Assembly: GCF_022568775.1 (NCBI RefSeq)
Contig: NZ_JAKZHW010000002.1
Coordinates: 447,501-511,500 of the forward strand
Reading direction: 5' to 3'
DNA: 64,000 bases
Source of the DNA: Sphingomonas telluris
GTDB lineage: Bacteria > Pseudomonadota > Alphaproteobacteria > Sphingomonadales > Sphingomonadaceae
This document shows positions 1 to 54,667 of the stretch, one piece after another. The notes below the pieces were generated by a model. It ran no database searches. It was not told where the DNA came from and worked only from the letters and a program-made list of their open reading frames with translations. Made by a program: the position numbers and the translations under genes. How positions within the stretch are numbered: the stretch's first letter is position 1; each line of letters opens with the position of its first letter.

Positions 1-1902
<1,902 letters not shown>

Positions 1903-1925
1903 GAAGTACTGAGTACCAAAGACTG

Positions 1926-1961
1926 GGGCGGCGGATCGAAAGGTCCGCCGCCCTTTCTTTT
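1926..1961 (+). terminator. Rho-independent terminator after the first TonB receptor
   Basis: A perfect 10-bp stem (GGGCGGCGGA at 1926-1935 with TCCGCCGCCC at 1944-1953) and an 8-base loop are followed directly by TTTCTTTT. It lies 24 bases after the receptor stop and before the sulfotransferase, so the downstream genes probably need read-through or their own promoter in 1962-2019. Confidence 0.85.
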
Positions 1962-2019: not shown

Positions 2020-4029
2020 ATGACCGCCAGTTCCGTTCTCGACGATAAGACTACGACCGCCATCCGCGCAGCCATGACGGCCGCAGGGGCTGGACGCGTG
2101 TCCGAGGCAGTGGACATCGGAGAGCGCGCCCTCGCGGGTGGTGGCGACAAAGCTGCGCTAAACGCGATGATAGGCATGCTGCATTGCCAGACCGGCAACC
2201 TCGACGCCGGCATCCGTCATCTCAAGACCGCCCGTCAGGCGAGGCCCGCTGACCCCGTCATCGCTGGCAACCTGGCCACCGCGCTTGCTTCGAACGGCGA
2301 CAATTCAGGCGCGCTACAGGTTTTAGGCGAGGACGTTGCAGCGAAGGACCCGACGTTCCGCTTGTTGAAGGTTCGGGCTTTCCTGGCGCAATCGACCGAG
2401 GACTTTCCTGCCGCGGTTACGGCGTACCAACGAGTTGTCGAAGCAAACCCCTCTGACTGGGAAAGCTGGAACAATCTCGGGAATGCGCGCCGCATGCTGG
2501 GAGATTTCGAAGGCAGCGTCATTGCTCTGCAGACAGCCGCAAAGCTCAACCCTGAGTCGCCTCCGGTGCGACTCAATCTGGCTCTCGCACTCGGCAACGC
2601 GGGGCATTTCGACGAAGCCGAGCAGCGCCTCCGGCGGATGGCCGAAGATCTCTCGAGCGATCCGAAGCCCCTTCGTGAATTGCATGCGTTGCTCAAGGAG
2701 CAAGGTCGCGAGGACGCGGCCTTGGAGGCGATCGAAGCGGCTGCTGAACGCGATCCAGCAGACAATGAATTGCAGCTGGCGTTAGCGAGCCAGCGCCTCA
2801 ACCTGCTTCACACGGAAGCTGCCGAACGAGCGTACCGGCAGGTTGTAGATCGTGATCCGTCTAACGCGCTGGCCAATTTGGGACTGGCCGTGGTGTTCGA
2901 GCTCACCAACCGAACCGAAGAATTGTCGTCCCTGGCCGGGGAAGCCGAGAAGCGAGGCGTCGGGCCCGATGTCCTGAACTTCATCCGCGCGTTCGATCAT
3001 CGGCGAGGCAAGCGTTTTGCCGAGGGGCTTGCGGCGCTTGAGGGCGTGCCGGACGAGCTGGAGACTGCTCGTCGGAATCACCTTCTCGGCCAGCTGCTCG
3101 AAGGTGCGGGACGCTACGACGAGGCTTTCGATGCCTTCACGCGCATGAACAAGATCCAGAGCGAGGATGCCTCACAACCTCTGGAACGCGCCGCCACATA
3201 TCGGGCGACCATCCGCGCTCAGTTGAACACGCTCACGCCTCATTGGGTCGACAGCTGGACGGCTCCCCACGAAGATGAGCGGGGGACCCCTGTCTTTCTT
3301 GTGGGCTTTCCGAGGTCAGGAACCACGCTTCTAGACACGATGCTCATGGGTCATTCCAACGTCGAAGTTCTCGAGGAAGAGCCGACATTGACCAGAGCGA
3401 CAAAGCTCTTGCCGGAGTTGAGCGAGCTTCCAAGCGCAACCGAGGAGCAGGTTCGCGCCGCACGGGATGAGTACTTCCGTATTGCCGCAGGTCATGTAAC
3501 GCTGGAGGCCGGGAAGCTCCTGGTCGACAAAAACCCTCTTTCGATGAATGGCCTTCCAGTCATCAAGAAGCTCTTCCCGAACGCCAAGATCATTCTCGCG
3601 CTTCGGCACCCCTGCGATGTGCTGCTGAGTTGCTACGCGACGAACTTCAAACTCAATGACGGAATGTCGAACTTCCTCAAGCTCGACACTGCGGCCGAAC
3701 TATACGACCTCAGCTTCCGCTATTTCGAGAAGGCCCAGGAGCTGCTGGGCATGCCTGTTCATCGCGTCGTCTACGAAAACGTCGTGGAGGATCGCGAGAG
3801 CGAGCTGAAGGCGCTTCTCCAATACCTTGGGCTCGAGTGGGACGCGGACGTGCTCGAGCATGAGAAGACGGCGCGCGGTCGCGGGCGCATCAAGACCGCG
3901 AGCTATGCGCAGGTCGCTCAACCGATCTACAGCCAGTCGGCGGGACGCTGGACCAACTATCGCAAACATCTCGAGCCCGTTCTGCCTGTGCTTGAGCCCT
4001 GGATAGCCAAGTTCGGCTACACGGTGTGA
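2020..4029 (+). CDS. TPR-repeat sulfotransferase
   Basis: A 669-residue two-part protein. Residues ~1-390 are TPR-like helical repeats (for example a block with NPSDWESWNNLGNARR near 145). Residues ~425-660 are a sulfotransferase domain. The PAPS 5'-phosphosulfate loop GFPRSGTT is at 429-436, and a 3'-phosphate-type segment LRHPCDVLLSCY lies near residue 527-540. The family moves sulfate from PAPS to a hydroxyl or tyrosine; fused TPRs usually bind a protein partner. No signal peptide is visible, so it should be cytoplasmic. It lies 4 bases before the next gene, also a TPR-fused modifying enzyme. The ATG at 2020 was chosen because the TPR region begins right after it; no strong ribosome binding site is seen. 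The substrate is unknown. Confidence 0.88.
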   Translation: MTASSVLDDKTTTAIRAAMTAAGAGRVSEAVDIGERALAGGGDKAALNAMIGMLHCQTGNLDAGIRHLKTARQARPADPVIAGNLATALASNGDNSGALQVLGEDVAAKDPTFRLLKVRAFLAQSTEDFPAAVTAYQRVVEANPSDWESWNNLGNARRMLGDFEGSVIALQTAAKLNPESPPVRLNLALALGNAGHFDEAEQRLRRMAEDLSSDPKPLRELHALLKEQGREDAALEAIEAAAERDPADNELQLALASQRLNLLHTEAAERAYRQVVDRDPSNALANLGLAVVFELTNRTEELSSLAGEAEKRGVGPDVLNFIRAFDHRRGKRFAEGLAALEGVPDELETARRNHLLGQLLEGAGRYDEAFDAFTRMNKIQSEDASQPLERAATYRATIRAQLNTLTPHWVDSWTAPHEDERGTPVFLVGFPRSGTTLLDTMLMGHSNVEVLEEEPTLTRATKLLPELSELPSATEEQVRAARDEYFRIAAGHVTLEAGKLLVDKNPLSMNGLPVIKKLFPNAKIILALRHPCDVLLSCYATNFKLNDGMSNFLKLDTAAELYDLSFRYFEKAQELLGMPVHRVVYENVVEDRESELKALLQYLGLEWDADVLEHEKTARGRGRIKTASYAQVAQPIYSQSAGRWTNYRKHLEPVLPVLEPWIAKFGYTV

Positions 4030-4033
4030 CCTG

Positions 4034-5179
4034 ATGCAGGACGGACTGGTGGGCGAAGCGGAACAGGCCGTCGCTGCCGGTGATCTCAAGCGGGCAGCAA
4101 CCTTGCTCCGGCAGGCGGCGGAGAGCCGTCCCGACGATCCGTCCCTATGGATGAAGGCCGCTGCGCTCCTGCGTGCAACAGGCGAACCGCAGGCCGCGCT
4201 CGACGCGGTGCACCGCGCGCTCACCGCTTCTCCGCTCGACTTCACAATGCTGCTGATGCGCGCCAGCCTCTTGCAGCGCCTCGGCCATCCCGAAGCCGGT
4301 CAAGCTTGGGGGCACGCAATCGCGCAGAAGCCGACTGGTGATTTGCCTCCGCAGATCGAGCAGGTTCTTGCCGAGGCTGAACGCCACCATTCAGCCTATG
4401 TTGATGCTCGCGAGACGCGGCTGAAGTCCGCGCTTTCTCCGATCGAGAAGGACGCCAGCGCAGAAGAACGCAAACGGATCGAGCGGTTTCGCGATAACGT
4501 CGTCGGCAGGACGAAAGTCTTTCATAGCGCGCCAACGCACTTCCATTTCCCCGAACTGACCGAGCGCGAATTTCATCCTCGTCACCTTTTCCCGTGGCTC
4601 GAGGATCTCGAGGCTGCGACCGATACGCTCGCGGAAGAACTGCAGACCGTCATGGCCGCCGAGCGCGCGGAGCTGGTTCCTTACATCCAGTACGACGAGC
4701 ATCTTCCGCTCGATCAATGGCGTCCGCTCAACAAGAACCCGGACTGGACGGCAATCCACTTGTGGCGGAACGGGTCGCTCGTCGAGGCGAATGCGCGCCA
4801 CTGTCCGCGGACGATCCAGTTGCTAAAGTCATTCCCGCAGCCGACAATTCGCGGTTCGGGGCCGAACGCAATGTTCTCGCTCCTAGCGCCGAAGACGGAA
4901 ATCCCGGCGCATGTCGGTGTGAACAATGCGCGGCTGGTCTGCCATCTGCCGCTGATCGTGCCCGAAGGCTGCTGGTTCCGCGTGGGCGCGGAGACACGTT
5001 ACTGGAAGCGCGGCGAGGCGTTCGTCTTCGACGACACGATCGAACATGAGGCGCTGAACCCCTCCGACGAACTGCGCGTCGTCTTCATCTTCGACGTCTG
5101 GCATCCGGACCTTAGCACCGTGGAACGCGATGCCGTGGCCGCACTGATCGGCGCCGAAGGAGGCGTGGGCGCGCTGTGA
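4034..5179 (+). CDS. TPR-aspartyl/asparaginyl beta-hydroxylase-like protein
   Basis: 381 residues: N-terminal TPR helices (~1-130), a linker, then an Asp/Asn beta-hydroxylase-type double-stranded beta-helix (~190-360). Candidate iron ligands are His293 (PAHVGVNN) and His338 (DDTIEHEA), 45 residues apart, with Arg348 as likely 2-oxoglutarate contact. Human AspH is unusual in having only two His ligands at nearly this spacing, and the same pattern is seen here. The enzyme would hydroxylate a protein or peptide side chain using O2, Fe(II) and 2-oxoglutarate. No export signal. The stop overlaps the next start (GTGA), so the genes are translationally coupled. A paralogue lies at 28147-29412. Confidence 0.9.
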   Translation: MQDGLVGEAEQAVAAGDLKRAATLLRQAAESRPDDPSLWMKAAALLRATGEPQAALDAVHRALTASPLDFTMLLMRASLLQRLGHPEAGQAWGHAIAQKPTGDLPPQIEQVLAEAERHHSAYVDARETRLKSALSPIEKDASAEERKRIERFRDNVVGRTKVFHSAPTHFHFPELTEREFHPRHLFPWLEDLEAATDTLAEELQTVMAAERAELVPYIQYDEHLPLDQWRPLNKNPDWTAIHLWRNGSLVEANARHCPRTIQLLKSFPQPTIRGSGPNAMFSLLAPKTEIPAHVGVNNARLVCHLPLIVPEGCWFRVGAETRYWKRGEAFVFDDTIEHEALNPSDELRVVFIFDVWHPDLSTVERDAVAALIGAEGGVGAL

Positions 5180-6687
5180 GCTTCTCCGCTGCATTGGCCG
5201 AGGCGTCTTCGCGGCCCGCGGACTCGGCGGCGCTGGAGCAACTCGCGGGAAGCGCCGTCGAGAACGGCGAGGAAGAGCGTGCTCTCCCGATCCTTGCGCG
5301 GGCCGTCGAGACCAGTCCGACTGCGCGCTTGTGGCAGGGGAAGGCGTTCCTCGAACGATCCCTCGACGAACATGAGCTGGCGCTCGCGTCCTACGCCGCT
5401 GCTGCCCGGCTCGCGCCCGACAACGTCCGGATCGCGCGTGATCGCGCGGAGACGACGCTAGAGGCAGGTCTCGACGCGCGGCCGCTCTATGAGGAGGCGC
5501 TGGCGCTCGCCCCGGGCAACGGCCTCCTGCGGATCGGGATGGCGAGAGCGCGAGCAGCGGCGGGGGAGGGCGAGAGCGCTATCGCCGAGCTGGAAGCATT
5601 GCTGGAGCAGGCGCCAGCCTGGACCGTGGGTCACGAGCAACTTGCCCAATTGAAGGCCACGCAGGGGAAGGCGGCCGAAGCGACATCGTCGCTGGAGCGC
5701 GCGCTCGAACGCTTCCCCGGTGCGCAGCCGCTTTGGGAGACCCTGCTCTACGTCCAGCTGCGGCGGGGCGCCTACGAGAGTCTGAGCGATATCCTCCTCA
5801 GGGCGCGCGCCGCGGGCGTCAATTCTCCCGAGTTCCGTATCTACGATGCCATTCACGCTGCGGAATTCGGGGCAGAGACTCATCCCGCAGCCTTGTTCGA
5901 TCCTGCCCATCCGGAAATCGACGCGGCACTTGGCCGCTGGCGGGTACGCCATCTGCTTCGCGTCGGCGCGCTCGACGAGGCATTGCGCTTGGTCGATGCA
6001 CAGCTTCGTGGCGATCGGACGGCCGAACTTTATGCCTATGCGGCGACCGCTTGGCGCCTCGCGGACGATCCGCGTTCTGAGTGGCTGGAGCGTCACGAGC
6101 CGTTTGTCAGCGTCGTCGACCTTTCCGACGATCTTCCGCCGTTGGACGTGCTTGGCGATACTCTTCGGGCGCTGCACGTCGCTAAGGGCGAATATCTCAA
6201 CGAGTCCGTGCGCGGTGGGACGCAGACGGACGGGCCGCTGTTCAGCCGGATCGATCCCGTCATCCGGCAACTCCGCAAGGCGGCCGTAGGCGCCGTGGAG
6301 AAGTACGTGTCCGCCCTGCCGCCAACCGACGGCGATCATCCATTGCTCCGTGAACGACGCGACCGCCGGGTGCGCTTCTCGGGAAGTTGGTCGGTCCGCC
6401 TGCGCTCCGGCGGCCGGCATGCGAACCACGTGCATCCGCAGGGATGGATCAGCTCGGCGCTCTATGTTGCGCTGCCCCCGAAATCGCAGGGCGAGGCCGA
6501 CGACGCGGGGTGGTTCACACTCGGCGAACCCGACGAGCGCCTTGGCCTTCAGCTTGGGCCTTGGCGCAAGATCGAGCCGAAGCCGGCGCAGCTCGTACTC
6601 TTTCCGTCCTGGATGTGGCACGGAACCGTGCCTTTCGCGGAGGGCGAGCGCCTTACGGTCGCCTTCGATGTCGCCCCGCCAATCTGA
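5176..6687 (+). CDS. TPR-2OG-Fe(II) oxygenase, copy 1
   Basis: 503 residues with a GTG start that overlaps the previous stop. Residues ~1-300 are TPR-like repeats. Residues ~330-503 match the putative 2OG-Fe(II) oxygenase family PF13759 (2OG-FeII_Oxy_5): NHVHPQGWISSALYV with His418 and His420, FPSWMWHGTVPF with His482, and Arg492 for 2-oxoglutarate. No signal peptide, so probably cytoplasmic. The next gene encodes a protein of exactly the same length that aligns with no visible gaps at the catalytic residues, so the two are a tandem duplication. The substrate is unknown. The TPR half has diverged more than the catalytic half. Confidence 0.85.
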   Translation: MSFSAALAEASSRPADSAALEQLAGSAVENGEEERALPILARAVETSPTARLWQGKAFLERSLDEHELALASYAAAARLAPDNVRIARDRAETTLEAGLDARPLYEEALALAPGNGLLRIGMARARAAAGEGESAIAELEALLEQAPAWTVGHEQLAQLKATQGKAAEATSSLERALERFPGAQPLWETLLYVQLRRGAYESLSDILLRARAAGVNSPEFRIYDAIHAAEFGAETHPAALFDPAHPEIDAALGRWRVRHLLRVGALDEALRLVDAQLRGDRTAELYAYAATAWRLADDPRSEWLERHEPFVSVVDLSDDLPPLDVLGDTLRALHVAKGEYLNESVRGGTQTDGPLFSRIDPVIRQLRKAAVGAVEKYVSALPPTDGDHPLLRERRDRRVRFSGSWSVRLRSGGRHANHVHPQGWISSALYVALPPKSQGEADDAGWFTLGEPDERLGLQLGPWRKIEPKPAQLVLFPSWMWHGTVPFAEGERLTVAFDVAPPI

Positions 6688-6696
6688 GCGCCGCGG

Positions 6697-8208
6697 ATGA
6701 GCTTTACCAACGCGCTCGCCATTGTATCCAGCCGGCCGACGGACGTCGCGGCGCTGGAGCAGCTTGCGAGCGCGGCTCTAGACGCAGGCGAGGAAGATCG
6801 CGCGCTTCCGCTCCTTGCTCGCGCTGTCGCCCAGCGCCAGTCGGCGCGGCTGTGGCAGTGGAAGGGGCTCCTCGAGCGAGCGCTCGACGAGCATGAAGAT
6901 GCTCTTGTTTCCTTGTCGGAAGCTGCGCGGCTCGATCCGCAGGACGCGAGCATCGCGCACGGCCTCGCGCGCACTGCGCTCGAAGCCGGTGTCCCGGCGG
7001 AGACATTATTCGAGCGGGCCCGCGCTCTCGCACCGGTCGATGGATCGGTGCTCATCGGGCTGGCTGCGGCGAGAGCCGCTGCCGGTCACGGCGAGCAGGG
7101 TGCGCAGGAGCTGGAAGCGATCCTTGCCGAGGTACCGCTGTGGCTCGACGGGCAATTGCAGCTCGCCCAATTGCGATCGACGCTTGGCGCCGGGCCACGT
7201 GCGATCGAAGCAGTCGAGCGCGCGCTAGCAGCGACACCGCAACAGCCGCAGCTTTGGCAGCTCTTGTTCGACCTGCATGCGAAGCGCGAGGACTTCGCGG
7301 CGCTTCTGGCGGCCGTCGAAAGGAGCAAGCAGGCTGGCGCACCTCGTACGCTGACGCGCGTGTTCGAAGCCGTTGCTTCGGGCGAGCTGGGAATGACGGA
7401 GCAGGCCGACCGCCTCTACGCCGAGGTGGACGCGAACGGGGGCGCCGGAATCGCGATGTGGCGCGTGCGGCACCTGCTGCGATCCGGCCGTCCCGAAGAA
7501 GCCAAGCCCATCATCGATGCGGAGATGGGTGGACCGGGCGCAGCCGTGACCTGGCCCTACGCAGCTTCCGCTTGGCGGATGACTGGAGATCCGCGTTCCG
7601 ATTGGCTTGACGGCGCTTCGAAGCTCGTGTCGGCCGCCGACCTCACGCCGGACCTGCCGCCAATCGAGCAGCTGGCGGCCACGCTACGAGCGCTTCACAT
7701 CGCCAAGGGCGAATATCTCGACCAGTCCGTTCGCGGCGGGACCCAAACTGATGGTCCCCTGTTCTCGCGGGTCGATCCGGTCATTCGCGCGCTGCGATCT
7801 GCGGTCGTGAGGGCAGTCGAGAAGCACGTCGCGCAGCTTCCGCCGCCGGACTCGCGCCATCCGCTACTCGCATCTCGTCGCGACCGCCGCATCCGTTTCG
7901 CGGGCAGTTGGTCGGTGCGGCTTCGGGATGCGGGCTTCCACACCAGCCACGTGCATCCCCAAGGCTGGATCAGCTCGGCCCTCTACGTCGCATTGCCGGA
8001 GGAGAAGCCCGGCGGCGATCCGCATGCTGGCTGGTTGCAACTGGGAGCGCCCCCGGCGGACCTCCGCACAGGGCTGGAGCCGCTCCGGCTGATCAAGCCC
8101 GAGCCGGGCAAGCTCGTGCTCTTCCCGTCATGGATGTGGCATGGGACGGTCCCGTTCGCGGCGGGCGAACGGCTCACCGTCGCCTTTGATGTTGCCCCGC
8201 CGCGCTGA
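6697..8208 (+). CDS. TPR-2OG-Fe(II) oxygenase, copy 2
   Basis: 503 residues, tandem paralogue of the gene just upstream, with a 9-base gap. The catalytic half is strongly conserved: the shared blocks SVRGGTQTDGPLFSR and GSWSVRLR and the ligands His418, His420 and His482 fall at identical numbers in both proteins. The N-terminal TPR half differs more, as expected if each copy binds another partner while doing the same chemistry (inference). ATG start at 6697. It is the last enzyme of the run starting with the sulfotransferase; a small secreted protein follows 80 bases later. Confidence 0.85.
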   Translation: MSFTNALAIVSSRPTDVAALEQLASAALDAGEEDRALPLLARAVAQRQSARLWQWKGLLERALDEHEDALVSLSEAARLDPQDASIAHGLARTALEAGVPAETLFERARALAPVDGSVLIGLAAARAAAGHGEQGAQELEAILAEVPLWLDGQLQLAQLRSTLGAGPRAIEAVERALAATPQQPQLWQLLFDLHAKREDFAALLAAVERSKQAGAPRTLTRVFEAVASGELGMTEQADRLYAEVDANGGAGIAMWRVRHLLRSGRPEEAKPIIDAEMGGPGAAVTWPYAASAWRMTGDPRSDWLDGASKLVSAADLTPDLPPIEQLAATLRALHIAKGEYLDQSVRGGTQTDGPLFSRVDPVIRALRSAVVRAVEKHVAQLPPPDSRHPLLASRRDRRIRFAGSWSVRLRDAGFHTSHVHPQGWISSALYVALPEEKPGGDPHAGWLQLGAPPADLRTGLEPLRLIKPEPGKLVLFPSWMWHGTVPFAAGERLTVAFDVAPPR

Positions 8209-8287
8209 GGACCGTTTGTCGATTTTGCTTTGCTTCTCCGCGCCCGGAGGAGAATATTCGCCGAGTTCGTTATCGGGAGTTTGTACC

Positions 8288-8554
8288 TTGAAGATTCATC
8301 GCGCGTCATTGGTTGCGGCATTGACACTTGGTCTGTCCGCACCTGCATTCGCTCAGGCGCCCACTGCGGCTCCGGCTCCGACGACCGCTGCCCAGAACCC
8401 GAACGAGATCGTCTGCCAGAAGCAGGAAGAAACCGGCAGCCGCCTCGCCAAGAAGAAGATCTGCATGACCCGCGCCGAATGGGCGGATCGGCAGCTTCAG
8501 GACCGCCAAGAACTGGAGCGCGCGCAGACCCGCCGCGGAATGAAGGGCGAGTAA
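8288..8554 (+). CDS. Small secreted two-cysteine protein (GSRL/TRAEW family), member 1
   Basis: 88 residues from a TTG start, chosen because GGGAG at 8275-8279 is well spaced and a clean signal peptide follows (cleavage after AFAQ, ~23). The mature part has NPNEIVC, GSRLAKKKIC and MTRAEW: two cysteines 15 residues apart, then a charged helix rich in Asp, Arg and Gln. Three relatives lie at 27239-28101. I recognise the pattern as recurring in alphaproteobacterial hypothetical proteins but know no function. It should sit in the periplasm or outside the cell, with its cysteines probably disulfide-bonded. Its stop is 3 bases from the end of the convergent msrA. Confidence 0.8.
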   Translation: MKIHRASLVAALTLGLSAPAFAQAPTAAPAPTTAAQNPNEIVCQKQEETGSRLAKKKICMTRAEWADRQLQDRQELERAQTRRGMKGE

Positions 8555-8557
8555 AGC

Positions 8558-9160
8558 CTAAGCCTTATAGAATTGCGGATACGTCCGCTTCAGCTTCGCG
8601 ACTTTCGGTGCATCGTTGATCACGATGTAGGGATAGTTGGGATTCCGCCGGGCGAAATCTTGGTGATAGGCCTCGGCCGGGTAGAAGCCGCCGCTTTCGA
8701 TCTTGGTCGCGATCTTGTTTCCGCGGGCGCGTAGCTGCTGGATGAAGCTCGCGGCGAGCTGCTTCTGCGCGGCATTCTGTGGGAAAATCGCGGAACGATA
8801 GCTCGGTCCCACGTCGGGCCCCTGGCGGTTCACCTGCGTCGGGTCGTGTGCGACCGCGAAATAGATTTTGAGCAGCTGCCCATAGCTCACCTGGCGAGGG
8901 TCGAAGGTGATGCGGACGGCCTCGGCATGACCGGTACCTTCGCCGCTGACCTTGTCATACTTCGCGTCCCGCGCGGTTCCTCCGGCGTAGCCCGAGACGA
9001 CGTCCTTCACGCCTTTGACGTGCTCGAAGACCGACTCCATGCCCCAGAAGCATCCGCCTGCAAGGACAGCCGTCTCCGTTGCCGGTTGCGCAACTGCGGA
9101 GGTCGAGAGCGAGAAGCTGGCGGCCCCTGCAAGTGCGAGAAGGCCTAGCGGCTTGATCAT
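8558..9160 (-). CDS. msrA: Peptide-methionine (S)-S-oxide reductase MsrA, exported
   Basis: 200 residues. A signal peptide (to ~AVAQ, 25) precedes the MsrA core with catalytic GGCFWG (Cys37), then GYAGG and an HAEAV segment. It reduces the S-epimer of methionine sulfoxide in proteins, here in the periplasm. An ATG at 9175 (METIA) is also in frame, but the one at 9160 has GGAG at proper distance and starts the signal peptide directly. It follows the detoxification operon by 59 bases and could be its last gene or have its own promoter. A separate exported MsrB lies at 46263. Confidence 0.94.
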   Translation of the reverse strand: MIKPLGLLALAGAASFSLSTSAVAQPATETAVLAGGCFWGMESVFEHVKGVKDVVSGYAGGTARDAKYDKVSGEGTGHAEAVRITFDPRQVSYGQLLKIYFAVAHDPTQVNRQGPDVGPSYRSAIFPQNAAQKQLAASFIQQLRARGNKIATKIESGGFYPAEAYHQDFARRNPNYPYIVINDAPKVAKLKRTYPQFYKA

Positions 9161-9219
9161 GGCGATCGTCTCCATCTTCTGCGCGCTTTATCCACAGGCC
9201 ACCTGAATGAAGGCTGAGG

Positions 9220-24238: not shown

Positions 24239-25506
24239 TCGCCCGCCATTGCCCCCTCTGACCGTTGAATCTCGCGCCAACCGATGTCGCTGCGATAGAA
24301 GCCGTCCGCGAAATCGATCTGATCGACGGCGCGGTACGCCCGCGCCCGTGCATTGGCGAAGGTCTCGGCGATGGCCGTGACCGCGAGGACGCGTCCGCCT
24401 TTCGCGACGAGGCCATTGTCGGACTGGGCGGTGCCGGCATGGAAGACGGTCACGCCGGTAATCTGCTCGGCAGCCTCGATCTCGCGGATGAGGCCTCCGC
24501 TTGCCGGCGTGCCGGGATAACCTCGCGCTGCGACGATGACGGTCACGGCGTGCTGCGGCGAAAGCCGCGGCTCGACGCCAGACAGTCGACCGGTCGCGAC
24601 ATTGAGCAGGAGCTCGGCGAAGTCACCCTCGATGAGAGGCATGATTGCCTCGCACTCGGGGTCTCCGAACCGGACGTTATATTCGATCAGCTTCGGCCCA
24701 TCGTGCGTCAGCATGAGCCCTGCGTAGAGAACGCCCGAGAAGGGCGTCCCGGCGCTTGCCATGGCCCGCGCGGTCGGGAGCACGATCTCTTTCATCGCGC
24801 GTCGTTCGAGTTCGGCGGTCAGCACGGGCGCGGGGCTGTAGGCGCCCATGCCACCGGTGTTCGGGCCCGTGTCCCCTTCGCCGACGCGCTTGTGGTCCTG
24901 TGCCGAGGCCAGCGAGATAGCGGTTTCGCCATCGACCAGCGCGAACAGGCTCGCTTCCTCGCCCTCCAGGAATTCCTCGATGACCATCGGTCCGTCGCCC
25001 GCCGCGTCGATCGCGGCTTCCGCTTCGACCATGGACATGGCGAGGGTGACGCCCTTGCCGGCGGCGAGCCCGTCGGCCTTGATGACGACCGGTGCGCCGA
25101 ACTGCGCCAGCGCGTTGCGCGCTTCATCGACAGTCTCGACACGCACGTAGCCGGCGGTGGGAATGTCGTTTGCGGCGCACAGGTCCTTGGTGAAGCCCTT
25201 GGAGCCTTCGAGCTGGGCAGCGGCCGCGTTTGGTCCGAAGACCGGAATCGCAGCGCTACGCAGCGCATCTGCAACGCCCGCCACCAAGGGCGCCTCGGGC
25301 CCAATGACCACCAGGCCGATGTCACGGTCCTTCGCGAGGTTCGTCACCGCCTCGGGATCGCACGGGTCGATGCCGACGCATTCAGCCCATCGTGAAATGC
25401 CCGGATTTCCCGGCGAAGCGATGAGTGTTTCGCAGCTCGGCGATTGCCTCAGCCGCCACGCGAGCGCATCTTCGCGTCCACCCGAACCCAGCAGCAGGAT
25501 GTTCAT
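24235..25506 (-). CDS. purD: Phosphoribosylamine-glycine ligase (GARS)
   Basis: 423 residues. [19 protein letters not shown] (family motif GGREHA, here with Asp for His), [29 protein letters not shown] (ATP-grasp) and [15 protein letters not shown] identify PurD. It joins glycine to 5-phosphoribosylamine with ATP in purine synthesis. Its start codon overlaps the start codon of the divergent xseA by two bases, so each gene's promoter must lie inside the other coding region. Two membrane-protein genes follow in the same transcript. Confidence 0.96.
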
Positions 25507-26911
25507 GGATCTCCCCGAAGACAGCGGCGGTGGACTGTTAGCCGAGGCCAAGGCCGGCGACAACGCGCCAGCGTTGTCCGTTACCGAGCTGTCGTCGTCC
25601 CTGAAGCGGACTATCGAGGCCTCGTTCGGCCGGGTCCGAGTCCGCGGCGAGATTTCCGGCTTCAAACGTCACGCTTCGGGCCATTGCTATTTCTCATTGA
25701 AGGACGAGGGCGCCTGCATGGACGCGGTCGTCTGGCGCAGCTCGGCGCAGACGCTTGCCTTCCGCCCCGAGGACGGAGCCGAGGTCATCGCGACCGGCAA
25801 GCTGACGACGTACCCCGGCCGCTCGAAATACCAGATCATGGTCGAGCGGATGGAGTTGGCGGGCGAGGGCGCCCTCATGGCTCTGCTCGACAAACGTCGG
25901 CGGGCCCTGGCCGCGGAAGGCCTGTTCGACGTCGGCCGCAAACGCAAGCTGCCGTACCTCCCGCGCCTGATCGGCGTGGTCACCTCGCCGACCGGCGCGG
26001 TCATCCGCGACATCCTCCACCGCCTGGAGGATCGCTGCCCGACCCACGTCATCGTCTGGCCGGTCCCGGTGCAGGGGGAGGGCGCGTCAACAAAGGTCGC
26101 GCAGGCGATCCGCGGGTTCGGCGCGCTTGAACCGGGTGGTCCGGTGCCCAGACCCGACCTGCTAATCGTCGCTCGCGGCGGCGGATCGATCGAGGACCTG
26201 TGGGCCTTCAACGAGGAAGAGGTCGTACGCGCGGCGGCGGAATCGCCGATCCCTCTGATCTCGGCCGTGGGCCATGAGACCGATACGACCTTGATCGACT
26301 TCGCCTCGGACATGCGGGCGCCGACCCCTACGGCGGCGGCCGAGATCGCGGTCCCGGTCAGGTCGGAGCTGATGGCGCTGGTGGACGACCTCGGTCGGCG
26401 TTCGGCGTCGTGTCTCACCGTCCACGCGCGACGAGCCCGCGAAAGGCTCGACCTCACGCTTCATCGCTGGCCGCAGCCGGAAGCGCTGTTCGCTCCGGCA
26501 ACCCAGCGCGTAGACGATCTTGTCGCGCGCATGCCGCGAGCGCTGGCGGCGCGTGCCGCCCACGCTCGCGCCGACCTTAGCGCAGTCGCACCCAGGCTGC
26601 GGATGGAGCTTCTGACGGACCGTATCCACCGCGCCGAGGACCGGCTGGCCTCGCTCTGGCGGCTGGCCGAGCTCGCGCACCCCGACCGCCCGCTAAAGCG
26701 CGGATTCGCCCGCGTCACCGACCGTGCGGGCAAGACCCTCACCCACGCCCCGGAGGCGCGCGCGGCCAAGACACTCACGCTGCATTTCGGCGACGGGACC
26801 GTCGAAGCGACCACCGAAGCGGAGCCCAGGCGCCCGCCACGGGTTGAGAGGACGTCCAGCCGACCCTATGTCGCTCCTCAACGGGGGCTGTTCGATGAAC
26901 CTGAGGACTAG
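25505..26911 (+). CDS. xseA: Exodeoxyribonuclease VII large subunit
   Basis: 468 residues. The N-terminal OB-fold ([29 protein letters not shown]), the catalytic core ([60 protein letters not shown]) and a coiled C-terminal part are typical of XseA, which with XseB degrades single-stranded DNA. The reading frame is open far upstream, but family length places the start at ATG 25505 (or 25499), overlapping the purD start. DUF2093 follows 3 bases later. Confidence 0.94.
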
Positions 26912-26914
26912 CCA

Positions 26915-27121
26915 ATGCTGATGAGCGGCACCGGCCGGATGGCCCGCCTTCACTATCTTCCTGGCACGTTCAGGGTGCTCTCGAACGGCGATCACGTGAT
27001 CTGTGCGGTCACAGGCGCGCACATTCCGCTGCACGAGCTCCGCTACTGGAGCGTGGAGCGGCAGGAAGCCTATGCCGATGCCGATGCCAGCCTTCAGGCC
27101 GAGAAGAACGCGGGCGGCTGA
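26915..27121 (+). CDS. DUF2093 protein
   Basis: 68 residues. The pattern ARLHYLPGTFRVLSNGDHVICAVTGAHIPLHELRYWSVERQEAY is that of DUF2093, a short alphaproteobacterial family often found next to xseA. Likely soluble; function unknown. A second in-frame ATG at 26921 is possible. Confidence 0.88.
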   Translation: MLMSGTGRMARLHYLPGTFRVLSNGDHVICAVTGAHIPLHELRYWSVERQEAYADADASLQAEKNAGG

Positions 27122-27238
27122 CCATCCGCCGTTGGTCGAATTGACCTTGCGCTAAACACTAGACGAAGTTCACAAATTTGGTTTGGCTGTTCGCGGTTTC
27201 GCGGGCGGCTCCGAATCGCATTGGACAGGGAGACGCTC

Positions 27239-27526
27239 ATGTTCGTTCGCCCCCTTGCACTGACCTTCGCTTTTTCCCTTGCGGCAGTGCCTCCAGCAAC
27301 CGCTCAGACGGCGAGCAAAGCCACTGGCTACGATCCAAACGAAAAGGTCTGCGAAAGCATCCCCGCGATCGGCAGCCGCCTCGCCAAGAAGAAGGTGTGC
27401 GGGACGCGCGCCGAATGGGAAGAGAAGAAGCGGCTCGACCGTGAGGCCGTCGAGCAGGCTCAGAGGCAGATCGGCGGTCCCTGCACCACCGTCGGGAACA
27501 AGAACACGGGAGGGCCTTCGTGCTGA
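27239..27526 (+). CDS. Small secreted four-cysteine protein (GSRL/TRAEW family), member 2
   Basis: 95 residues. A signal peptide (to ~TAQ, 23) is followed by DPNEKVC, GSRLAKKKVC and GTRAEW, with the first two cysteines 15 residues apart as in the other members, a charged helix and a Gly/Cys tail (GGPC...GGPSC). The ATG at 27239 is preceded by AGGGAGA. First of three adjacent paralogues; the next start lies inside its last codons. The mature protein is about 72 residues, probably with two disulfides. Function unknown. Confidence 0.8.
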   Translation: MFVRPLALTFAFSLAAVPPATAQTASKATGYDPNEKVCESIPAIGSRLAKKKVCGTRAEWEEKKRLDREAVEQAQRQIGGPCTTVGNKNTGGPSC

Positions 27527-27804
27527 AGCCGCCTTTGATGATGATCGCCGTCTGCGGGCTTTGCCTGACGGCGACCCCCGCGCTCGCCGACCAGAAGAAT
27601 GCGACGACCGCCTCCGAGGACCCGAACCAGAAGATCTGCGAGAATATCGTGGTGACGGGCAGCAGGTTGGCGAGCCGCCGGTTCTGCGGGACCCGCGCCG
27701 AATGGGCAGAGCGCAAGCGGGCGGATCGGGAGGCTCTCGATGCGGCGCAACGCGGCCCCTGCGTGCTCACTCATAACAACGGCGGGGGGCATCCCTCTTG
27801 CTAG
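27520..27804 (+). CDS. Small secreted four-cysteine protein (GSRL/TRAEW family), member 3
   Basis: 94 residues from a GTG that overlaps the previous stop by 7 bases, with GGGAGG well placed. Signal peptide to ~ALA (24). The mature part contains DPNQKICENIVVTGSRLASRRFC and GTRAEWAERK with the conserved C-x15-C spacing, then a C-terminal pair GPC...HPSC. The stretch IVVTGSRL looks like the start of TonB-receptor plug domains, noted under findings. Translationally coupled to member 2. Confidence 0.8.
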   Translation: MLKPPLMMIAVCGLCLTATPALADQKNATTASEDPNQKICENIVVTGSRLASRRFCGTRAEWAERKRADREALDAAQRGPCVLTHNNGGGHPSC

Positions 27805-27819
27805 TCAGGAGTTCATGAG

Positions 27820-28101
27820 ATGATTGTTCGATCTCTGATGGTTGCGTCGGCCCTGATGATTTCCAGCATGGCGTCCGCTCAAACGGCCCCGGCGCCGCCA
27901 GCGAATGCCAACCCAGGCACGAACACGCCGGATCCGAACGAGAAGATCTGCCAGAACATCACGATGATCGGCAGCCGCCTCGCCACGAAGCGCTTCTGCG
28001 GAACGCGCGCCGAGTGGGCGGAGCGGAAGCAGCAGGACCGCGATGCGCTCGATGCAGCGCAAAGAAGCCCGTGCGTGCGCGACGGCCTGACCTGCAAATA
28101 G
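27820..28101 (+). CDS. Small secreted four-cysteine protein (GSRL/TRAEW family), member 4
   Basis: 93 residues; ATG at 27820 with CAGGAG nine bases upstream. Signal peptide to ~ASAQ (22), a Pro/Ala/Asn-rich spacer, then DPNEKICQN, GSRLATKRFC and GTRAEWAERK, and the C-terminal SPC...LTC pair. Closest to member 3 in its core. It is 45 bases before a TPR-hydroxylase gene, as member 1 is just after two TPR-oxygenases. Function unknown. Confidence 0.8.
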   Translation: MIVRSLMVASALMISSMASAQTAPAPPANANPGTNTPDPNEKICQNITMIGSRLATKRFCGTRAEWAERKQQDRDALDAAQRSPCVRDGLTCK

Positions 28102-28146
28102 GCATTGCTTGACCACTAAGGGGCGGTCTGCCTGAATGCCGGTCGC

Positions 28147-29412
28147 ATGGCGGGCGGCACCATCCACCAACACCTTGAAGCGGCCCAGCACGCTCGGAGC
28201 GCCGGCCAGCGCGACGTCGCGCGGAAGCATCTGGAAGCCGTCCTGGCCATCGACAGCGAGGAGCCAAGTGCCCGCAACCTTCTGGGCGTCGATGCTCTGG
28301 AGCGGCAAGACGCCGGTGCGTCAGCCGACCATTTCGAGATAGCGTGCAGGCGAGAGCCGGATAATCGCGGGCATTGGATCAACCTTGCGACGGCGCGTCG
28401 GATGCTCGGCAATGCAGCTGCCGAGGAAGCAGCTCTCGAAAAGGCCCTGACGCTCGACCAGACCGATTTGCTTGCGCTGATTCGGCTTGCGGAACTTTAC
28501 GAGCGGCAGGGGAGGTCGGCGAAGGCGGCAGACCGCTGGCGCGCGGTCATCCAGCTTTCGTCGCACATCGAGGATCCTTCGCCGGAGTTCCTCGCCATCG
28601 TCGAGCGAGCCAAGAACGCAGTTCGGGAGGAGAAGCGGCAGCTCGCGACTGCCGTTGCGGATGCGCTCGACGCCGAGCTTTCGGAAGCGAGCGTCCGGGA
28701 CAGGCGAAGGATGCAAGCAGCTTCTGATGCTTGGCTGGGAAAGCGGGCCATCTACGCAAACCATTGCGAAGGACTGCACTATCCGTTCCTGCCCGCCGAC
28801 GAATTTTTCGACCGCGAGCATTTCACCTGGCTGGAGCAGTTGGAAGCGGCCACGGCCGTCGTCATCGAAGAGCTAAAGGCGGTTCTCGCGACGCCCGACG
28901 TCGGCCTGGTGCCCTACATCTCGATGCCGGAAGGCATGCCGGCGAACAAATGGTCTGAGCTCGACAAGTCACTCGACTGGGGGGCGCTGCATCTGTGGAA
29001 AGAGGGCGAGCGCAACGACGCGGTCTGCGCCCGCGTGCCTCGAACCGCCGCTCTGCTCGAATCGCTTCCGCTTCCCCGGATCTCCGGCCGAGCGCCGAAC
29101 GCCTTCTTCTCGATCCTCAAGGCTGGAGCCCACATTCCGCCGCACACCGGGGTCACGAACGTCCGCAGCGTCGTCCATTTGCCGCTGATCGTCCCCGCGG
29201 GCTGCGCATTCCGCGTCGGGGGCGAGACGCGGTCGTGGCGCGTCGGCGAGGCGTTCGTGTTCGACGATACGATCGAGCATGAGGCGTGGAACCGCAGCAA
29301 CGAGGACCGCGCGGTGCTGATCATCGACACGTGGAACCCTCATCTCAGCGAGCATGAGCGCGCGATGATCCGCCGCCTCTATGAAGCGGCCGACCGTCAA
29401 CGTCTCGGCTGA
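28147..29412 (+). CDS. TPR-aspartyl/asparaginyl beta-hydroxylase-like protein, second copy
   Basis: 421 residues: TPR repeats (~5-140), a linker, and the same hydroxylase fold as the protein at 4034. Candidate ligands are His333 (PPHTGVTN) and His378 (DDTIEHEA), again 45 apart, and the blocks RVGGETRSWRVGEAFVFDD and LPLIVPAGC match closely. No signal peptide. It follows three small secreted cysteine proteins on the same strand, with 45 bases in between. Its stop touches the stop of clpB with no gap. Substrate unknown; the proximity suggests, but does not prove, that those proteins or their partners are modified. Confidence 0.9.
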   Translation: MAGGTIHQHLEAAQHARSAGQRDVARKHLEAVLAIDSEEPSARNLLGVDALERQDAGASADHFEIACRREPDNRGHWINLATARRMLGNAAAEEAALEKALTLDQTDLLALIRLAELYERQGRSAKAADRWRAVIQLSSHIEDPSPEFLAIVERAKNAVREEKRQLATAVADALDAELSEASVRDRRRMQAASDAWLGKRAIYANHCEGLHYPFLPADEFFDREHFTWLEQLEAATAVVIEELKAVLATPDVGLVPYISMPEGMPANKWSELDKSLDWGALHLWKEGERNDAVCARVPRTAALLESLPLPRISGRAPNAFFSILKAGAHIPPHTGVTNVRSVVHLPLIVPAGCAFRVGGETRSWRVGEAFVFDDTIEHEAWNRSNEDRAVLIIDTWNPHLSEHERAMIRRLYEAADRQRLG

Positions 29413-32019
<2,607 letters not shown>

Positions 32020-50460: not shown

Positions 50461-51489
50461 TCAGGCGCCTTGGCTGGAGTCGCGAACCACGAGCTTCACG
50501 GGAAGCAGCTGCGACTTGATCGTTCCATATTCGACCGCCTCGACGGCCGCTTCGACCAGCGCCTCGCCGGCGCGGCGCGAATCCTGGCGCACAGTGCTGA
50601 GTGGTGGGCTCGACAGGCTAGCGGCTGGAATGTCGTCGAAGCCGACGATCGCAACTTCGTCGGGGATCAGCCGCCCTAACTTCTGGAGCGCGTGCATGGC
50701 GCCAATCGCGGCGACGTCGCTGGCGCCAAAGATCGCGTCGAAGCGAACGCCTCGTTTGATGAGTTCTTCGACGCCCTCGCGCCCGGCTTGCTCGCTGGGC
50801 TCCGCATCGACGCACAGGCGGTTGTCGGGCTCGATGCCGGCGGCACGAAGGGCGCGGCAATAGCCACGCCAGCGGTCGAAGCACTCGGGATAGGCGGGTC
50901 CAGCTGTACCGATGAAAGCGATGTCCCTGCGGCCGGACTGCAGGAGGTGCTCGGTCGCGTCGAATCCGCCCTGTTCATTGTCGGAACCGACCGTGGCGCC
51001 GATTGGCACTCCCGGGGCCGATCCCCACCAGACGAAATGCGTACCCCGTTCGGTCAGCCGGCGAAGGATCGCCTCGTACTGCAGATAGTCGCCGTAACCG
51101 AGCAGGATGATCCCGTCCGCGCGATGCGTGTCGGCATAGTCGACGTGCCAGTCGGAGGAGAGCTGCTGGAACGAGATGAGCAGGTCGTACCCAGTGTCGG
51201 CGCACTTGCGGACCATCGCCCCCAGCATCGACAGATAGAAGGGATTTATGAGGCCGCCGTCGTCCGACGCGGCCTCCTCGAACAGGACGGCAAGCGTGCG
51301 CGAGCGGTTCCGGCGGAGGCCGGAGGCGTTCTTGTCGACCTTGTAGTTGAGCTGCTCCGCGGCGGCGAGGACTCGGGCCCGGGTCTCGGCGCTGACGGAG
51401 GGGCTATTGTTGAGGGCGCGGGACACCGTCGGCTGCGAAACGCCAGCCAGTGCTGCGATGTCGAAAGAGGTCGGCCGCCTCTGCATCAT
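50461..51489 (-). CDS. LacI-family regulator of the oligosaccharide locus
   Basis: 342 residues. The N-terminal helix-turn-helix is SFDIAALAGVSQPTVSRALNN, with hinge QLNYKVDKNASGLRR, and the periplasmic-binding-protein-like core includes GYGDYLQ, VGSDNEQGGFDATEHLLQSGRRDIAFIG and VAIVGFDDIPAASLSSPPLSTV. Such regulators are released from DNA by an oligosaccharide. Its gene lies between the MFS gene and the divergent TBDR, next to a palindrome it may bind. Confidence 0.94.
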   Translation of the reverse strand: MMQRRPTSFDIAALAGVSQPTVSRALNNSPSVSAETRARVLAAAEQLNYKVDKNASGLRRNRSRTLAVLFEEAASDDGGLINPFYLSMLGAMVRKCADTGYDLLISFQQLSSDWHVDYADTHRADGIILLGYGDYLQYEAILRRLTERGTHFVWWGSAPGVPIGATVGSDNEQGGFDATEHLLQSGRRDIAFIGTAGPAYPECFDRWRGYCRALRAAGIEPDNRLCVDAEPSEQAGREGVEELIKRGVRFDAIFGASDVAAIGAMHALQKLGRLIPDEVAIVGFDDIPAASLSSPPLSTVRQDSRRAGEALVEAAVEAVEYGTIKSQLLPVKLVVRDSSQGA

Positions 51490-51514
51490 CCCCTTCGACC
51501 CAAATTAGGCGCTC

Positions 51515-51528
51515 TGAATACGTATGTA
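51515..51528. promoter_or_regulatory. Candidate LacI-type operator
   Basis: TGAATACGTATGTA, a 14-base imperfect palindrome (12 of 14 bases symmetric) with central CpG, the feature LacI-family dimers recognise. It lies 26 bases upstream of the lacI-type start and 117 bases before the TonB receptor start, so it can control both directions. Seen in the sequence; binding is inferred. Confidence 0.6.
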
Positions 51529-51644
51529 TAGCTGCTGATCCAGTTCCCCTCAGCCGAAGCACTGATATTCCTGGTGCATCAGGAGAGAGGCGTCCGCGCT
51601 GCTTGGGGCATCGACGGCCGGACGTGTCAACGAGGGGAGAGTAC

Positions 51645-54608
51645 ATGACTGGTTTAACTTCGCGTTCGCGCCTGGCCGCAGCGGCGAGCCCGCTCGCGCT
51701 ATGCCTGGCATTCGCAAGCAGCGCGGCCTACGCGCAAGACACGACGCCACCGCCGCCGGATCCGAGCGCAGCGATCGAGGCCGGCCAGGAGGTCGACGCC
51801 GGCGCTTTAAAGGAAGAGACGCCGGGCGAGAGCCCGATCGTCGTTACCGGCTTCCGCGCCGCGCTGCAGAACGCAGTGAACACTAAGAAGCGGGCCGACC
51901 AGATCGTCGAGTCGGTCAGCGCGGAAGACATCGGCAAGCTGCCGGACGCCTCGATCGCGGAATCGATTTCCCGCCTGCCGGGCGTCGCCTCGCAGCGCAT
52001 CGCGGGTTCCGGCCGCACGTCCTATCTGTCGATCCGCGGCTTCGCCCCGGACTATTCGACGACGCTCCTTAATGGGCGCGAACAGACGTCGACGGGCGAC
52101 AACCGTGCGGTCGAATACGACCAGTATCCGTCGGAAATCGTCAGCCAGGTCAACGTCTATAAGACGCCCATGGCCTCGATCATCGGCCAGGGTGTCGCCG
52201 GTACGGTCGACCTTCGGACGATCCGTCCCCTCGAATATGGCAAGCAGGTCATCTCGTTCGGTGGCCGTGGCGTCTACATCGACAACGGCAAGATCAACGA
52301 CGGCAGCAAGGAGTTCGGCTACCGCCTGAACGGCGTCTACGTCGACCAGTTCGCCGACGGGAAGGTGGGCGTGTCGCTCGCCGCCAGCTGGAACGACGAG
52401 CCCTATTCGCTCGAGGAGTTCGAATCGTGGGGCTATCCGACGATCGGCCCGAACGGCGGCCCGCCGGCGGTCATCGGCGGCACCAAGTCCTACGTGACGT
52501 CCAGCCAGCTGAAGCGCTTCGGCCTTCAGGGCACGCTGGAATTCAAGCCGACGGACCAGATCACGTCGACCGTCGACGCCTTCTACTCCAACTTCAAGGA
52601 CGACCAGATCAAGCGCGGCATGGAAGTGCCGCTCTATTGGTCGTCGGCCGTCCTGGAGCCTGGCTTCACCGTCAACGACGGCCTGGTCACCAAGGGGACG
52701 TTCAGCAACGTCCATGCCGTGCCCCGCAACGTCGCCTGGCAGCGTGATGCCAAGCTCTATTCGTTCGGCTGGAACAACCGGTACGACAATGACGACGGCT
52801 GGCACGGCGTCCTCGACCTCAGCTACTCGAAGACCAAGCGCAACGAGTGGATCTTCGAGGTCTGGTCGACCACCGGCGGCGTGCCCGACGTCATGGATTT
52901 CGAATCCGGCGGCCACGGGACCAGCTTCACGCACGATCTCGATTATTCCGATCCGAACCTCGTCGTTCTGTCCGATCCGGGCGGATGGGGCGGCACCGGC
53001 TACTCGAACAACCGCATCGTCCACGATCGCATCTGGCAGTATCGCGGCGAAATCGGGAAGGATCTGAACACCAGCATCTTCTCGCGCGGCGTCTTCGGCG
53101 TGAACTTCACGAACCACGACAAGTCGCTGACCCCGGACGAGGCCTTCATTCGCCTGCCGAACGGCGCCGCTTCGGCCCACGTCCCGACAGACCTTCTCAA
53201 GAAGCCGACCGATCTCGACTTCCTCGGGCTCGGACCGGTTCTGTCCTTCGATCCGTTCGATCTGCTCGACGCGGGCATCATCACGCTCGTCAGCGGCAAC
53301 ACGAATCCGGACGTTCAGCTGAAGGCCTACGACGTCCACGAAAACCTTTGGACGCTGTACACGCAGTGGGACATCCGTGCCGACCTCGGCTCGGCTGAGC
53401 TGACCGGCAACGTTGGCGTGCAGGCGGTGCACACCGATCAGAGCGCCGGCGGCTTCATTGCGCAGAACGGCGAGATCACGCCTACGACTGGTGGGGCGCA
53501 GTATTGGGACGTCATGCCCAGCCTCAACCTGTCGGCTCGCTTCCCGAGCGATTGGGTGATCCGCCTCGGCCTCGCGCGTGAAGTGATGCGGCCGCGCATG
53601 GACGACATGCGGTCCTCGACGCGCGTTAATATCAGCAATGGAAGCAGCCCCGATCCGGAGCTTCACTTCGTCACGGGCGATACGGGTCAGCCGGAACTCC
53701 GGCCGTTCCGTGCCAATGCAGCGGACCTCAGCTTCGAGAAGTATTTCGGCATCAAGGGCTACGTCGCGCTGCAGCTGTTCTACAAGCACTTCAACACGTT
53801 TGTCGTGAACCAGGCGCTGCCCGGCGTACCTTACGACTTTACGGGGCTTCCGCTGCCGGAACCGTTCCAGAGTACCGACCCGAGCGATCCGCTCACCTAC
53901 GTGCCGCCTGAAAATATCCAGAACGGCATCATCTTCCAGCCGTACAACGTGAAGGGCGGCAACCTGTACGGTGCGGAACTTGCAGGTACGATCCCGATTG
54001 GCGAATTCATCCCCGCACTGGACGGCTTCGGCTTCACGGGCGGCGCGGGCTGGACCAAGTCGAAGATCCACATTTCTCCAGGCGCGCCTCCAAGCGACCT
54101 GCCCGGCTATTCGAAGTGGGTCGTGAACGGCACCGCCTACTTCGAAAAGTACGGCTTCTCTGCCCGTGTCAGCGGACGCTATCGTTCGAGCTTCATCGGC
54201 GAGGTCTCGGGCTTCGGCGCGAACCGTACGCTTCGCCGTTCGAAGCCGGAGACGGTCTGGGATGCGCAGATCGGGTATGAGTTCCAGCCAACCTCTGCGC
54301 TGGCTGGCTTGTCTCTCTATCTGCAGGGCCAGAACCTGACGAACGAGCCGTTCGTGACCTTCGGAAGCGCCGAGAACCAGATCATCAACTATCAGGAGTT
54401 CGGTCGGCGCTTCATGCTGGGCGCGACCTACAAGTTCGGTCAGCACGCGGCTCCGCCGCCTCCGCCGCCGCCACCTCCGCCGCCGCCTGCACCGCCGCCT
54501 CCGGCGACGCAGACTTGCGCCGACGGCTCGGTAATCCTGGCGACCGAGGCCTGCCCGGCCCCGCCGCCTCCGCCTCCGCCGCCTCCGCCGGCGCCTGAAC
54601 GCGGCTGA
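51645..54608 (+). CDS. TonB-dependent receptor of the oligosaccharide locus
   Basis: 987 residues; GAGGGGAGA precedes the ATG. Signal peptide to ~AYAQ (31), then a Pro-rich stretch, ESPIVVTGFRAALQNAVNTKK, the plug (VSAEDIGKLPDASIAESISRLPGV; LSIRGFAPDYSTTLLNGREQTSTGDN) and a barrel ending YKF at 931. This is the Caulobacter MalA-type TBDR group. A 56-residue tail follows: poly-Pro, TQTCADGSVILATEACP, poly-Pro and APERG, almost the same as in the first receptor. A huge antisense reading frame covers it but is a codon-bias shadow. Its neighbours suggest maltodextrin import. Confidence 0.95.
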   Translation: MTGLTSRSRLAAAASPLALCLAFASSAAYAQDTTPPPPDPSAAIEAGQEVDAGALKEETPGESPIVVTGFRAALQNAVNTKKRADQIVESVSAEDIGKLPDASIAESISRLPGVASQRIAGSGRTSYLSIRGFAPDYSTTLLNGREQTSTGDNRAVEYDQYPSEIVSQVNVYKTPMASIIGQGVAGTVDLRTIRPLEYGKQVISFGGRGVYIDNGKINDGSKEFGYRLNGVYVDQFADGKVGVSLAASWNDEPYSLEEFESWGYPTIGPNGGPPAVIGGTKSYVTSSQLKRFGLQGTLEFKPTDQITSTVDAFYSNFKDDQIKRGMEVPLYWSSAVLEPGFTVNDGLVTKGTFSNVHAVPRNVAWQRDAKLYSFGWNNRYDNDDGWHGVLDLSYSKTKRNEWIFEVWSTTGGVPDVMDFESGGHGTSFTHDLDYSDPNLVVLSDPGGWGGTGYSNNRIVHDRIWQYRGEIGKDLNTSIFSRGVFGVNFTNHDKSLTPDEAFIRLPNGAASAHVPTDLLKKPTDLDFLGLGPVLSFDPFDLLDAGIITLVSGNTNPDVQLKAYDVHENLWTLYTQWDIRADLGSAELTGNVGVQAVHTDQSAGGFIAQNGEITPTTGGAQYWDVMPSLNLSARFPSDWVIRLGLAREVMRPRMDDMRSSTRVNISNGSSPDPELHFVTGDTGQPELRPFRANAADLSFEKYFGIKGYVALQLFYKHFNTFVVNQALPGVPYDFTGLPLPEPFQSTDPSDPLTYVPPENIQNGIIFQPYNVKGGNLYGAELAGTIPIGEFIPALDGFGFTGGAGWTKSKIHISPGAPPSDLPGYSKWVVNGTAYFEKYGFSARVSGRYRSSFIGEVSGFGANRTLRRSKPETVWDAQIGYEFQPTSALAGLSLYLQGQNLTNEPFVTFGSAENQIINYQEFGRRFMLGATYKFGQHAAPPPPPPPPPPPPAPPPPATQTCADGSVILATEACPAPPPPPPPPPPAPERG

Positions 54609-54619
54609 TCTTGAGCGTT

Positions 54620-54645: not shown

Positions 54646-54667
54646 CCGCGAACGATGAAAGAGCGAC

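Follow-up and report, generated by a model that had tools for sequence, protein, structure and literature searches.

The 64,000-nt stretch of Sphingomonas telluris analysed here (contig NZ_JAKZHW010000002.1, positions 447,501 to 511,500; hereafter the window) carries, behind a gene for a TonB-dependent receptor (TBDR), four consecutive genes in which a tetratricopeptide repeat (TPR) region is fused to a modifying enzyme, followed by the gene of a small exported protein with two cysteines. This gene set is probably a real and previously undescribed modification system. A clade of TBDRs recurs with one or more of these TPR-fused enzymes (AspH-type, PF13759 and TPST-like). Often the receptor also has a secreted RLACYD/VasI-like protein as its neighbour, and the small GSRL protein joins the module chiefly in Sphingomonadaceae.

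Gene layout and enzyme families

A first-pass annotation, made from the letters of the window, had reported the four enzymes and a small secreted Cys protein behind them, and Pfam searches together with the signal-like N-terminus of the latter confirmed both. The features are as follows.

1..1902, + strand: TBDR, 3' part (PF00593 barrel, 1.4e-36; Plug domain, 7e-20 in the full-length gene)
1774..1899, + strand: Pro-rich C-terminal tail of the TBDR with a Cys loop (same tail in 8 other outer-membrane-type proteins of the genome)
1925..1954, + strand: terminator-like hairpin between receptor and enzyme genes (13 pairs, then TTCTTTT; a consensus match, not proof)
2020..4029, + strand: TPR-sulfotransferase (ST), 669 aa (PF13469 Sulfotransfer_3, 1.1e-31, plus TPRs; human TPST1, 5.3e-13, residues 423-667)
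4034..5179, + strand: TPR-AspH-type hydroxylase, 381 aa (Asp_Arg_Hydrox, PF05118, 9.7e-43, plus TPRs)
5176..6687, + strand: TPR-PF13759 2-oxoglutarate (2OG)-Fe(II) oxygenase (OX) copy 1, 503 aa, GTG start (2OG-FeII_Oxy_5, 9.3e-22)
6697..8208, + strand: TPR-PF13759 2OG-Fe(II) oxygenase (OX) copy 2, 503 aa (2OG-FeII_Oxy_5, 1.5e-21)
8288..8554, + strand: small exported two-Cys protein (GSRL...C.TRAEW family), 88 aa if the TTG start that we chose is right, with a signal-like N-terminus

The receptor gene begins 1,530 bp ahead of the window, and the complete receptor has 1143 aa. A gap of 117 bp separates it from the first enzyme gene, and the four enzyme genes are tightly packed between 2020 and 8208; the AspH gene and that of OX copy 1 share 4 bp, and the two OX copies are 55% identical. 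In all four enzymes significant TPR families lie N-terminal to the catalytic domain, which is located at about 3289-3843 in the ST gene and at about 4619-5107 in the AspH-type gene. Convergent to the small-protein gene is one for the methionine sulfoxide reductase MsrA (8558-9175, minus strand), which has a signal-like start.

The AspH-type enzyme of the window combines a TPR domain with a PF05118 oxygenase domain of AspH fold, and the nearest solved enzyme is human AspH, in which the domains stand in the same order; the module enzyme differs in being bacterial and without an export signal, and its modelled domains hinge in another way (rmsd 12-13 Å). H293, H338 and R348, corresponding to the two-His metal site and the 2OG-binding Arg, are invariant in 30/30 relatives. 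ST carries a Sulfotransfer_3 domain whose nearest solved relative is TPST. Its likeness to TPST1/2 (5.3e-13) covers residues 423-667, and the TPST-like PRSG and DK.P positions are retained in at least 90% of the aligned relatives (48 collected), whereas, unlike TPST1/2, ST is fused behind TPRs and lacks an export signal. The OX copies score 77.8 and 77.1 bits against a PF13759 cut-off of 27, and H415, H418, H420, H482 and R492 are invariant in 29/29 relatives; from this conservation we infer catalytic roles for these His and Arg residues. In Pseudomonas, the 2OG oxygenase gene piuC adjoins the TBDR gene piuA, in whose expression it is described as playing a part (PMC11878004). Such loci of a siderophore TBDR are the nearest described arrangement that we found and share with the module a 2OG oxygenase gene beside a TBDR gene; TPR fusion, AspH and sulfotransferase are not mentioned in the part of PMC11878004 available to us, and PiuC is likened here by description, not by sequence.

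That the enzymes lack export signals, as the first-pass annotation had it, was borne out by a crude hydropathy measure of the N-terminal core. The maximum hydropathy of the window's enzymes was 0.67-1.31, without a signal-like core, and that of the TBDR and small proteins was 2.11-2.38, with such a core. In related loci the cut was reached by ST in 1/24, AspH in 0/30 and OX in 1/27 cases, and by 24/36 small proteins and 30/43 TBDRs. By this measure the enzymes look cytoplasmic.

Recurrence with a clade of receptors

One genome per species was scanned with the window's two AspH proteins, and the open reading frames of the resulting 37 loci were tagged with purpose-made profiles. TBDR, ST, AspH, OX and small protein were all found together in 15 of the 37 loci, and only the small protein was missing in three more (L048, L061, L063); a TBDR was present in 28, and contig ends truncate several of the partial loci. 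The order of the genes varies, being AspH-OX-ST in L051-L054 and different again in L058, L063 and L065, and the loci include one from Caulobacteraceae (L063) and one from a gammaproteobacterial metagenome-assembled genome (L065). Twenty random 20-kb regions from the searched genomes, taken as a chance control, contained no ST, no AspH and no small protein, one single-domain PF13759 gene and two TBDRs.

Moreover, a bait-free control set the TBDR relatives of 41 genomes against every typed enzyme match, near meaning within 6 kb. An enzyme was near 21/29 TBDR loci at ≥300 bits, 5/8 at 230-300 bits and 4/28 below. The eight misses in the highest class comprise two contig-end splits (G003, G012), one broken copy (G010) and five others (G037, G035 with two, G013 and G002, where the place itself was not fetched). 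A lack of co-occurrence across genomes, which the first-pass annotation had named as refuting its proposal, was thus not observed. From the OX side, 24 of 32 entries adjoin a TBDR, including G020 and G029 (where the receptor is broken); two of the 32 are halves of one G010 gene, and 5 of the 8 entries without a TBDR sit at contig ends. The broken TBDR genes of G010 and G029 are at L189 and L195, and in G029 the TPR-PF13759 gene beside the broken receptor is open.

In a midpoint-rooted tree of 69 distinct receptors, 41 enzyme-near receptors form one clade, within which the enzyme sets change; the 7 receptors of a neighbouring clade are accompanied by AspH (and in one case by ST as well), and the other enzyme-near receptors are scattered. 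Comparison of the 41 receptors with the 28 others yielded no clade-marking residue that indicated a single modification site, and PDB matches to the receptor, mainly in the plug region, suggested no ligand.

Companion proteins and the xseA-clpB interval

In the small protein, two Cys some 15 residues apart flank G-[ST]-R-[LI], and C-x-T-[RK]-x-x-W follows. All 18 aligned proteins have C43, G50 and C59, no conserved Tyr was found among them, and no Pfam family matched at E 0.01. Matches occur in 23/41 genomes, that is in 22/25 of the genus plus one weak match (G037) inside a receptor frame. These proteins are exported, to judge by their signal-like N-termini, and are variable and often tandem. 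They accompany AspH alone in the window, L062 and L073, and OX and TBDR, sometimes with ST, without AspH in L106, L107, L108 and L114; outside the family they are present in L065 and L235. The motif [DN]P[DN] precedes the first Cys in 25/37 copies that have AspH no more than 6 kb away and in 0/26 of the others, and PPP or PPK stands in its place in the four AspH-less modules. Among four further AspH-linked small proteins, [DN]P[DN] was found in one (L235) within the stretches compared, and the motif as a possible AspH target is a lead only. We also considered mimicry of the TonB box, because GSR[LI] is shared by the small proteins and the TonB-box region of the receptors; the motif is also in receptors outside the clade and is thus uninformative about the enzymes.

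Many module TBDRs are adjoined, usually divergently, by a secreted protein, RLACYD. It is some 170-200 aa long and carries the motif C-x(6-11)-R-L-x-C-[YF]-D close to the N-terminus, as well as a second region of conservation. By hand count it accompanies 24 of the 35 main-clade receptors that have upstream sequence; 13 of the 14 matches above 140 bits in the 41 genomes lie beside a TBDR match and the remaining one (G014) is at a contig end, and none was found in the 20 random regions. It is absent from the window's genome, G012 and G015, and G008 and G010 have only weaker matches elsewhere; in these five genomes the module receptor has the C-terminal tail, and as they are near relatives nothing was concluded from this. 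Eight RLACYD proteins share the N-terminal Cys motif with VasI (PF11319, a type VI secretion accessory protein; E 2.2e-5 to 0.025), but all eight score below the Pfam cut-off of 26.5 bits (best 24.6) and so fall outside the family as defined. The C-terminal half has a conserved motif of its own, DGxxWxQxD...LGSY...VRRV, without a Pfam match, and was seen in L039, L070, L106, L130, L132, L134, L141, L145 and others. On these motifs, the RLACYD protein would deserve a separate family.

In L106 (3842-7440) and L114 (4921-8504), a PF01507 gene, which we take to be CysD-like, and a GTP_EFTU/APS_kinase gene lie between ST and the small proteins, and this pair would make 3'-phosphoadenosine 5'-phosphosulfate (PAPS) within the module. 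A methyltransferase-like gene, a possible fourth tailoring step, follows the PAPS pair in both loci and is also found in L107 and L108.

The C-terminal tail of the receptor consists of a Pro run, TQTC.DG..I......CPAPP with an Asp within the Cys loop, another Pro run and APERG. It ends nine outer-membrane-type proteins of the genome, both TBDRs and smaller porin-like proteins (window 1774-1899 and 54480-54605; L027-L034), and is found in 25/25 genomes of the genus (1-12 copies) and 0/16 others of the order. The peptide is kept while its codons vary (in 36 pairs, 489 codon differences are synonymous and 156 change the amino acid), and the tail is perhaps a periplasmic anchoring or sorting tag. 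At 51450-57960 the window contains a second tail-bearing TBDR, behind which lie genes resembling those of a tryptophan halogenase (54668-56188) and an amylase (56188-57960), both named by eye; other tail TBDRs adjoin genes of SapC-like and cupin-like type (L032) or a further halogenase-like gene (L031).

The remaining three of the window's four small GSRL proteins belong to a second cluster between xseA and clpB.

25157..26911: xseA (exonuclease VII)
27239..27526, 27520..27804 and 27820..28101, + strand: three further small GSRL proteins, ahead of the second TPR-AspH gene
28147..29412, + strand: second TPR-AspH-type hydroxylase, 40-41% identical to the first
29413..32019, minus strand: clpB

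The TBDR, small-protein and tailoring genes found in the xseA-clpB interval vary among Sphingomonadaceae (window 25157-32019, with many relatives).

Candidate substrates and rival explanations

We hold it about evenly balanced whether the genes form a receptor-linked module in which cytoplasmic TPR enzymes hydroxylate or sulfate an exported module protein before its export, the substrate being one that we infer. The TPR grooves would hold the still-unfolded protein ahead of Sec export, the C-terminal domains would hydroxylate or sulfate its side chains, and the modified protein may then tune the receptor's recognition or uptake. Among the candidate substrates we put the receptor first, since no other exported protein was found alongside so wide a range of enzyme combinations. 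The small GSRL protein comes next, particularly in the case of the AspH-type enzyme. The modification system proposed in the first-pass annotation is partly supported, namely by the co-occurrence, by the cytoplasmic look of the enzymes, by nearest solved relatives that modify proteins and by the PAPS-synthesis genes in two relatives; it is weakened in that, within the family, much of the co-occurrence goes back to one inherited site. Its small protein does recur with enzymes and TBDRs across genomes, with the exceptions given below.

Several observations weigh against the receptor-linked module. xseA or clpB neighbours 19/37 loci and 11/15 five-part loci (the exceptions are L041, L049, L055 and L065), and TBDRs without enzymes occupy the xseA-clpB site in L192 and L193, so that the co-occurrence in Sphingomonadaceae is partly a matter of inherited position. 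Synteny as the sole explanation is thus partly true, but it is insufficient for the sets off this site (the window, L041, L049, L055, L063, L065, L229 and L238, although some loci are short and the site could lie beyond them). The window's main set has moved about 20 kb off the site as one unit, and the sets off the site in other families (L063, L065, L229, L238; again with some short loci) also argue for functional linkage. The enzyme families range wider than the module. AspH stands alone in 4/37 loci (L067, L068, L069, L074). TPR-PF13759 relatives occur in 33/190 genomes of the class, with a TBDR in 3 of 20 fetched regions. TPR-AspH occurs in 32/398 genomes of the phylum, and in 20 regions from this wider sample (5 from the same family, 10 from elsewhere in the class and 5 from other classes) a TBDR was found in 10 (3, 5 and 2, respectively), five of these scoring >800 bits against the receptor profile, ST in 5, the RLACYD protein in 4, the small protein in 3 and OX in 2. 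In the window itself, a terminator-like site (1925-1954) separates the TBDR from the enzyme genes; the hairpin search returned 9 such sites against 6.0 expected, and this one has the most pairs. The position equivalent to R688 of human AspH, which contacts the substrate Asp according to PMC12816917, is aliphatic in 30/30 AspH relatives (V 14, I 14, L 2). As to the small protein, 16/63 distinct copies lie more than 6 kb from any enzyme or TBDR, it was undetected in 13 other-family loci (L059, L063, L070-L072, L139-L141, L143, L145, L167, L170, L171), and on a tree of these short sequences the covariation of [DN]P[DN] with AspH comes down to just 2 supported pairs that are independent. Synteny and the in-module PAPS genes weigh in opposite directions, and our confidence in the receptor-linked module is left where it was, near the midpoint.

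The main rival is that the enzymes tailor the receptor's ligand, a cytoplasmic peptide or natural product that would be secreted and re-imported via the TBDR, with the small protein maybe as its precursor. The TBDR is the most constant partner, the small proteins combine export signals with variability and a frequent tandem arrangement, the methyltransferase-like gene of L106, L107, L108 and L114 would fit, and peptide maturation often employs 2OG oxygenases and sulfotransferases. We nevertheless consider ligand tailoring unlikely, since the TPR domains suggest protein clients and the 13 other-family loci are without a detectable small protein; no synthetase or peptide exporter was found among the few annotated neighbours (9 + 5 proteins), which is weak evidence. 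TBDR loci often include catabolic genes, and the enzymes might instead serve the receptor's uptake pathway, by regulation or by processing of the imported substrate in the style of a utilisation locus. The penicillin-amidase-family gene that adjoins the TBDR in L238 and the placement and described role of piuC beside piuA (PMC11878004) point this way. Sulfation and AspH-type hydroxylation are atypical as breakdown steps, and we hold such a role improbable, although neighbours were annotated in a few loci only and catabolic genes may well lie in others.

Still lower is the chance that a lipid is the hydroxylation target of the PF05118 enzyme, as lipid A is of LpxO and ornithine lipid of OlsC, and that the neighbours of this enzyme alter the envelope around the receptor. 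OlsC (80.8 bits) and LpxO (52.1 bits) are indeed the best NCBIfam matches, but both scores are far under the curated cut-offs (450 and 500 bits) and membership in these families was rejected; the order of TPR and oxygenase domains and the structure fit human AspH, and the TPST-like enzyme would be left without a role. The receptor's C-terminal tail was initially a strong lead as the common substrate, being Pro-rich, with an Asp in its Cys loop, and conserved as a peptide despite codon differences. However, the enzymes run through the order without the tail, which is confined to the genus, and of the genome's nine tail loci such enzymes adjoin only the window's receptor. The tail was therefore dropped as a genus-wide tag unrelated to the module, and we give it hardly any chance of being the substrate.

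Taking the receptor-linked module further, we tentatively suggest, as less likely than not, a bacterial counterpart of the decoration of proteins in secretory pathways, in which TPR-held hydroxylases and a tyrosine-type sulfotransferase would modify the receptor and its small companion in the cytoplasm, before export, and so set the recognition of a nutrient, partner protein, phage or toxin. Our literature search, which left most subscription journals outside, turned up no description of such a module. These bacteria have TonB-dependent receptors in large numbers, and for most of these receptors we know of no ligand. If the proposed reading is true, bacterial outer-membrane or secreted proteins would be hydroxylated or sulfated before export, a chemistry best known from eukaryotic secretory pathways, and the module singles out a small set of proteins in which mass spectrometry could give a clear yes or no.

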